The notes under the pieces are model-generated. The model saw only the letters and a list, made by a program, of their open reading frames with translations, was not told the origin of the DNA and did not search any database. Both the position numbers and the translations under genes were made by a program. From Dromaius novaehollandiae (lineage: Eukaryota > Chordata > Aves > Casuariiformes > Dromaiidae), in contig NC_088112.1 of assembly GCF_036370855.1 (NCBI RefSeq), positions 16,794,469 through 16,858,468 of the forward strand: 64,000 bases of DNA. The letters run 5' to 3'. Of this stretch, positions 1,198-1,311 are shown piece after piece (the first letter of the stretch is position 1; each line of letters opens with the position of its first letter).

Positions 1198-1311
1198 ATG
1201 CTGCTAATCCTCGTCCTGCTGGTGCTGGTGCCCTGCCTGGCTCTCCTCACCTCCTTCCTTCTCTCTCCAGGAGGCAAAAGCGGTGGCAACAAGAAGAATG
1301 ACGGCGTGAAG
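1198..1311 (+). CDS. alphaKAP first coding exon (alternative N-terminus of CAMK2A, no kinase domain)
   Basis: alphaKAP is a non-kinase product of CAMK2A that joins CaMKII holoenzymes through the hub domain and anchors them to the sarcoplasmic reticulum. The ATG at 1198 (A at -3) opens 38 codons. Residues 1-23 are almost purely hydrophobic (Leu, Val, Ile, Ala) and form the membrane anchor. Residues 25-38 are the shared CAMK2A linker [14 protein letters not shown]. The exon ends at a GTAAGC donor. The anchor codons run straight through the acceptor of the kinase transcript: TTCCTTCTCTCTCCAG at 1255-1270 is both a 3' splice site and codons for F-L-L-S-P-G. Joined to the downstream exons it gives 199 residues with the NLS exon or 188 without it. 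The hydrophobic leader followed by this linker matches mammalian alphaKAP as I remember it. The transcription start is not visible. Confidence 0.85.
1271..1311 (+). CDS. CAMK2A: CAMK2A linker exon ([13 protein letters not shown])
   Basis: This 41-base exon follows the acceptor CTCTCTCCAG (1261-1270) and ends before GTAAGC. It begins in phase 1 and encodes the linker that follows the calmodulin-binding region. In the alphaKAP transcript the acceptor is not used and the exon extends upstream to an ATG. Confidence 0.92.

Follow-up and report, generated by a model that had tools for sequence, protein, structure and literature searches.

A splice acceptor of emu CAMK2A that may also encode the membrane anchor of an alphaKAP-like product

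Can the 3' end of an intron, complete with its pyrimidine tract and AG, also be read codon by codon as the membrane anchor of a second protein? The question is raised by the start of a window of 64,000 nucleotides (the whole stretch of DNA that was analysed) from Dromaius novaehollandiae, which opens within a CAMK2A intron, the gene being on the + strand. In mammals the same gene also yields alphaKAP, a non-kinase product reportedly described by Bayer in 1996 and 1998. This product is ascribed to an alternative promoter and is a hub-only protein targeted to the sarcoplasmic reticulum (PMC5882894), is termed a splice variant with a lipid tail that targets the same membrane (PMC9913510), and has highly abundant transcripts (PMC8155201). 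Judging from the sequence, we consider it highly probable that the emu site serves CAMK2A as its alphaKAP start, within a hybrid first/internal exon (an exon that comes first in some transcripts and lies internally in others).

Exons were located in the animal's own genome with a CaMKII alpha protein as query, which was used for that purpose only. Every segment of this protein was found: the kinase exons lie upstream of the window, at three loci of the same genome (L013, L007 and L008); those for linker and hub are in the window itself, as follows.

1271..1311, + strand: linker exon of 41 nt, common to the kinase and the alphaKAP-type product (frame and exon search).
5452..5484, + strand: NLS exon, optional (exon search).
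6578..6626, + strand: linker exon of 16 residues (exon search).
8396..8471, + strand: hub exon of (V)+25 residues (exon search).
9534..9628, + strand: hub exon of 31 residues (exon search and Pfam).
10030..10262, + strand: last coding hub exon, ending in SVLPQ-stop (Pfam CaMKII_AD, 1.2e-30, and exon search).

The Pfam association domain (PF08332) independently recovers the last two hub exons. The CAMK2A exon that precedes the 41-nt linker exon ends in ...RNFSG, with the donor ...AACTTCTCCG/GTAGGT at L008:9062, and the intron between this donor and the linker exon measures 2,208 nt; the linker exon is itself followed by a donor, AAG/GTAAGC, at 1311/1312. Farther along the window, on the minus strand, the Pfam family SNF (sodium:neurotransmitter symporter) is matched by three ORFs in the interval 22214-29211, which fits an SLC6A7 gene convergent to CAMK2A, and an ORF at 51548-52594 with a Caudal-like activation domain (8.6e-48) fits CDX1. 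These minus-strand neighbours agree with the gene order CAMK2A-SLC6A7-CDX1.

An ATG at position 1198, inside CAMK2A and 3' of all kinase-domain exons, begins a frame of 38 codons that reaches 1311 without a stop, crosses the acceptor of the kinase transcript and is in frame with linker and hub. Four features, one of them a candidate, share the DNA of this crossing.

1198..1270, + strand: ATG and hydrophobic anchor of alphaKAP type, on DNA that is at the same time the last part of the kinase intron (frame, hydropathy and periodicity).
1246..1250, + strand: candidate branch point CTCAC, with A1249, in the codons for Leu17-Thr18 (YTNAY scan).
1250..1268, + strand: unbroken polypyrimidine tract, in codons 18-24.
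1269..1270, + strand: acceptor AG of the kinase linker exon, its A closing the Pro24 codon and its G opening that of Gly25.

The anchor, MLLILVLLVLVPCLALLTSFLLSP, takes up 24 codons and the opening base of Gly25, and is joined directly to the linker residues; the predicted product as a whole contains the complete hub (8396-10262) and lacks the kinase domain. The kinase acceptor, ...CTCTCTCCAG/GAGGC, falls at 1270/1271. The kinase junction at this point is in phase 1, and since the exon upstream likewise has G as its last base, the Gly25 codon comes out as GGA either way; from Gly-Gly-Lys onward the two products share their sequence. The AG dinucleotide is absent from 1151 to 1268. A1249, which sits 21 nt before the last intron base, is the best placed match to the branch consensus (the other YTNAY sites in the scanned interval, 1140-1262, being those of A1207 and A1162), and the overlap of acceptor and anchor may include the branch point.

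The initial annotation had proposed a hydrophobic ATG frame running through the polypyrimidine tract and AG, in a CAMK2A gene with an alphaKAP-like nested start and a shared acceptor; the stop-free frame from 1198 to 1311, in phase with the hub, and the recovery of all CaMKII alpha segments bear this out. Its further claim on the coding role of the CT-rich tract is not supported as phrased: the C+T content of 1248-1270 is 87%, but what the tract supplies is just the tail of the anchor (codons 18-24, TSFLLSP), and we reject the idea that it encodes the whole.

A hydrophobic frame that starts with an ATG and crosses an acceptor is not rare, because pyrimidine tracts encode hydrophobic residues, and the open frame might be a by-product of the tract, lying in what would be untranslated intron in Dromaius novaehollandiae. 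Our standard of comparison was a set of 39 acceptors from the same genome, 16 of CAMK2A (the present one included), 16 of CAMK2G and seven of CAMK2D (41 exons were tried, and two were dropped when the script found no AG near the expected place). The paralogue names CAMK2G (C6) and CAMK2D (C4) were inferred from peptide likeness, and no CAMK2B locus was found among the matches listed. In the 38 other acceptors, for each of which the script took, among the AGs close by, the one with the most pyrimidine-rich tract (a choice not confirmed by RNA), the eight in-frame codons before the AG have a mean hydropathy of 1.31, compared with -0.44 at random positions on the same contig. In 18 of the 38 the reading frame of the exon is open over the 24 codons that precede the AG; in eight an ATG stands in frame at a distance of 15-60 codons upstream, and two of those eight have an ATG-led read-through with a hydropathy above 1.4 (the NLS exon, at 1.93, and the RKQEII exon, at 1.49, both in CAMK2A). 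Such frames evidently arise by chance, and with an in-frame ATG at eight of the 38 controls we do not regard an open frame with an ATG as telling by itself.

The two control read-throughs may be described briefly. At the acceptor of the NLS exon (5452-5484), no stop interrupts the in-frame read-through for 62 codons, an ATG stands 32 codons upstream and the end is very hydrophobic; this could be another anchor start comparable to the one at 1198, but is probably due to chance. The RKQEII hub exon (8396) has in-frame ATGs 21 and 23 codons upstream and a read-through of 24 residues, which again probably reflects chance.

Measured against the same set, the acceptor at 1270 is extreme in several respects. 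Positions -20 to -4 are pyrimidines at 17 of 17 sites (the best of the 39, tied with two others), and no other acceptor of the 39 has an AG-free run as long as its 118 nt (the next is 78 nt, and the median of the others 33.5 nt). Mean hydropathy over 24 codons is 2.5, again the highest (the next value, 2.18, comes from a read-through that contains a stop), and of 20,000 random positions on the same contig a fraction of 0.00005 attains this level. An alphaKAP-type anchor was not seen at the two paralogous linker-exon sites examined: in CAMK2G the same exon is preceded by an open frame, ...NSDLLFLFLST/AAKSLLNKKSDGVK, with the nearest ATG 34 codons away, and in CAMK2D by a sequence with stops, ...I-stop-H-stop-NYFSHFT/AAKSLLKKPDGVK.

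Several properties of the protein side argue against a mere by-product. Most of the hydrophobic segment is encoded upstream of the tract, in codons rich in CTG and GTG; the best 19-residue windows, with a hydropathy of 2.91 and starts at residues 2, 3 and 4, do include the Phe-Leu-Leu of the tract, and the stretch LTSFLLSP has a hydropathy of 1.29, no higher than the control mean. The signal is also specific to one frame, the other two frames of the anchor DNA being near neutral (0.15 and 0.06). T stands at the second position in 17 of the 24 codons, compared with seven of 48 at the other positions; within codons 2-14 the counts are 11 of 13 at the second position and one of 26 at the first and third, and within codons 15-23 the bias is not significant (p = 0.24). 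When 72-nt windows were scanned on both strands of 26 own-genome sources, five of 623,058 showed as strong a second-position T pattern, all of them shifted copies of this same anchor. Since CTG and GTG triplets could give a repeat-like periodicity without selection, this evidence is strong rather than conclusive.

The anchor may also resemble the N-terminus of rodent alphaKAP: it is identical at 16 of 25 columns, a score reached by none of 20,000 shuffles, to a provisional version of the rodent sequence that was set down after the window had been seen. Four segments of this mammalian anchor, searched for in papers, gave no match in print. With the position of the hydrophobic segment, its frame specificity, the T pattern and the provisional likeness to alphaKAP all standing against it, we judge the by-product explanation unlikely.

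On the splice side, the choice of codons shifts at the point at which the splice signals start. At fourfold sites, the third base is a pyrimidine in three of 11 cases in codons 2-14 and in eight of 10 in codons 15-25, the range named in the initial annotation (one-sided Fisher p = 0.023); post hoc trimming of the two AG codons gives eight of eight in codons 15-23 (p = 0.0022). Leucine is encoded by CTG in five of seven cases before codon 15 and by CTY in four of four after it; for reference, the gene's own CAMK2A exons use CTG for 26 of 42 leucines. We also resampled synonymous codons according to the gene's own codon usage, with the protein held fixed: 17 of 17 pyrimidines appeared in 0.98% of 200,000 draws, and the same together with an AG-free frame in 0.63%. 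The AG-free frame by itself arises in 30% of resamplings, and we do not count it as telling. The third-base shift and the resampling together place the overlap of the strict constraints at about codons 17-25.

The proposal that two products constrain the same bases thus finds internal signs on each side, in the pyrimidine third bases and in the second-position T pattern, and a double use of the acceptor/anchor DNA is supported by the sequence. That alphaKAP is present while the acceptor is not double (the kinase transcript skipping the exon or using another acceptor, and the constraint coming from the protein only) is very improbable, because the linker exon joins its neighbours in the phase that the kinase requires, solved CaMKII alpha chains contain the linker-exon segment joined to ...FS (a short match, E 0.07), and the tract is strong, with third bases that become pyrimidines over it.

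For the alphaKAP start, the DNA upstream of the ATG was scanned for elements of a putative muscle promoter.

771 and 1104, + strand: E-boxes CAGCTG, with a further E-box, CACATG, at 797 (scan above position 700, without a chance test).
820..829, + strand: MEF2-type site CTAAAATTAG, candidate muscle promoter element (exact match to the consensus).
858..864, + strand: M-CAT-like CATTCCT (12 in the window, compared with 11.15 expected; not significant).
1018..1025, + strand: CRE-like TGACGTCA (at least one match in 30 of 100 shuffles; not significant).

The MEF2 consensus occurs in four of 2000 dinucleotide shuffles of 1-1197; the site lies in GC-rich DNA, and its first base is 378 nt before the ATG at 1198. 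The M-CAT and CRE matches are at chance level and were rejected as promoter evidence. None of three TATA-like patterns is present on the + strand of 1-1197, and CpG observed/expected, taken in 400-nt steps over 1-2600, peaks at 0.70 in 801-1200. It is the MEF2 consensus that leads us to infer transcription in muscle. Two other features of the region may be recorded: a donor-like CCC/GTGAGC at 1093, between the putative promoter and the ATG at 1198, could splice out the anchor if transcription begins upstream of it, and an upstream ATG at 1037, in a different frame, would give a short uORF if the muscle transcript begins above it.

The two uses of the site as an alphaKAP start and as a kinase acceptor would be kept apart by where transcription begins. 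In neurons the transcript would start far upstream, so that the donor at L008:9062 would pair with the acceptor region at about 1249-1270 and the exon 1271-1311 would be internal. In muscle an internal promoter, with the MEF2 site at 820-829, would start transcription downstream of that donor; the acceptor, left without a 5' partner, would be retained in the first exon of the mRNA and translated from the ATG at 1198, giving a hydrophobic anchor that continues into linker and hub. Once inserted in the membrane of the sarcoplasmic reticulum, such a product would hold kinase subunits there through co-assembly with its hub.

The arrangement resembles that of mammalian alphaKAP in the nested start within CAMK2A and in the hydrophobic N-terminus followed by linker and hub; it differs from the provisional rodent sequence in that the emu anchor is one codon shorter before GG, and the emu product is a predicted one. 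The kinase genes FAK and MLCK likewise have non-kinase products, FRNK and telokin, which arise from internal promoters and are expressed in muscle cells; the putative emu product would be similar in these respects. To our knowledge, neither FRNK nor telokin starts with a read-through of a splice acceptor that serves as a membrane anchor.

Exons of the hybrid first/internal type have been described as a class (PMC10256964), and the emu exon would share their defining feature, one exon being first in some transcripts and internal in others; unlike them, the acceptor retained in CAMK2A would itself be coding and make a membrane anchor. A further likeness is to a mode of gene birth described in yeast, in which membrane segments come first, from T-rich DNA (PMC7005711): there too, non-coding T-rich DNA tends to encode membrane segments, although that work concerns yeast intergenic ORFs and not splice acceptors. 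A treatment of the alphaKAP anchor as a coding splice acceptor was not found in the literature, a weak negative in that the search was made without the founding papers, and neither was a coding pyrimidine tract in hybrid exons.

How the anchor originated can be proposed with little confidence. Conceivably, though doubtfully, it was born from the splice acceptor: a muscle promoter would have arisen within a few hundred bases of the intron's end, after which the 3' splice site would have been translated, and the tract and branch point (CTN-ACN, Leu-Thr) would have given a ready hydrophobic tail, lengthened upstream by CTG and GTG codons. We cite for this the hydropathy before the AG at the other 38 acceptors, set against its background, and the same exon of CAMK2G, which shows the raw form, LLFLFLST.

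As a gene the finding is ordinary, and unless the anchor came from the acceptor it amounts to the alphaKAP arrangement that would be expected in a further vertebrate; as a test case for an acceptor that becomes a membrane anchor it is of moderate interest. The case is a compact one, with a candidate branch point, pyrimidine tract, AG and membrane anchor that share bases, so that the two uses can be tested against one another. If the anchor did come from the acceptor, introns would quite generally supply membrane anchors from their 3' ends wherever a hybrid first exon is created by an internal promoter, and coding hybrid first exons would be predicted to be enriched for N-terminal membrane anchors.
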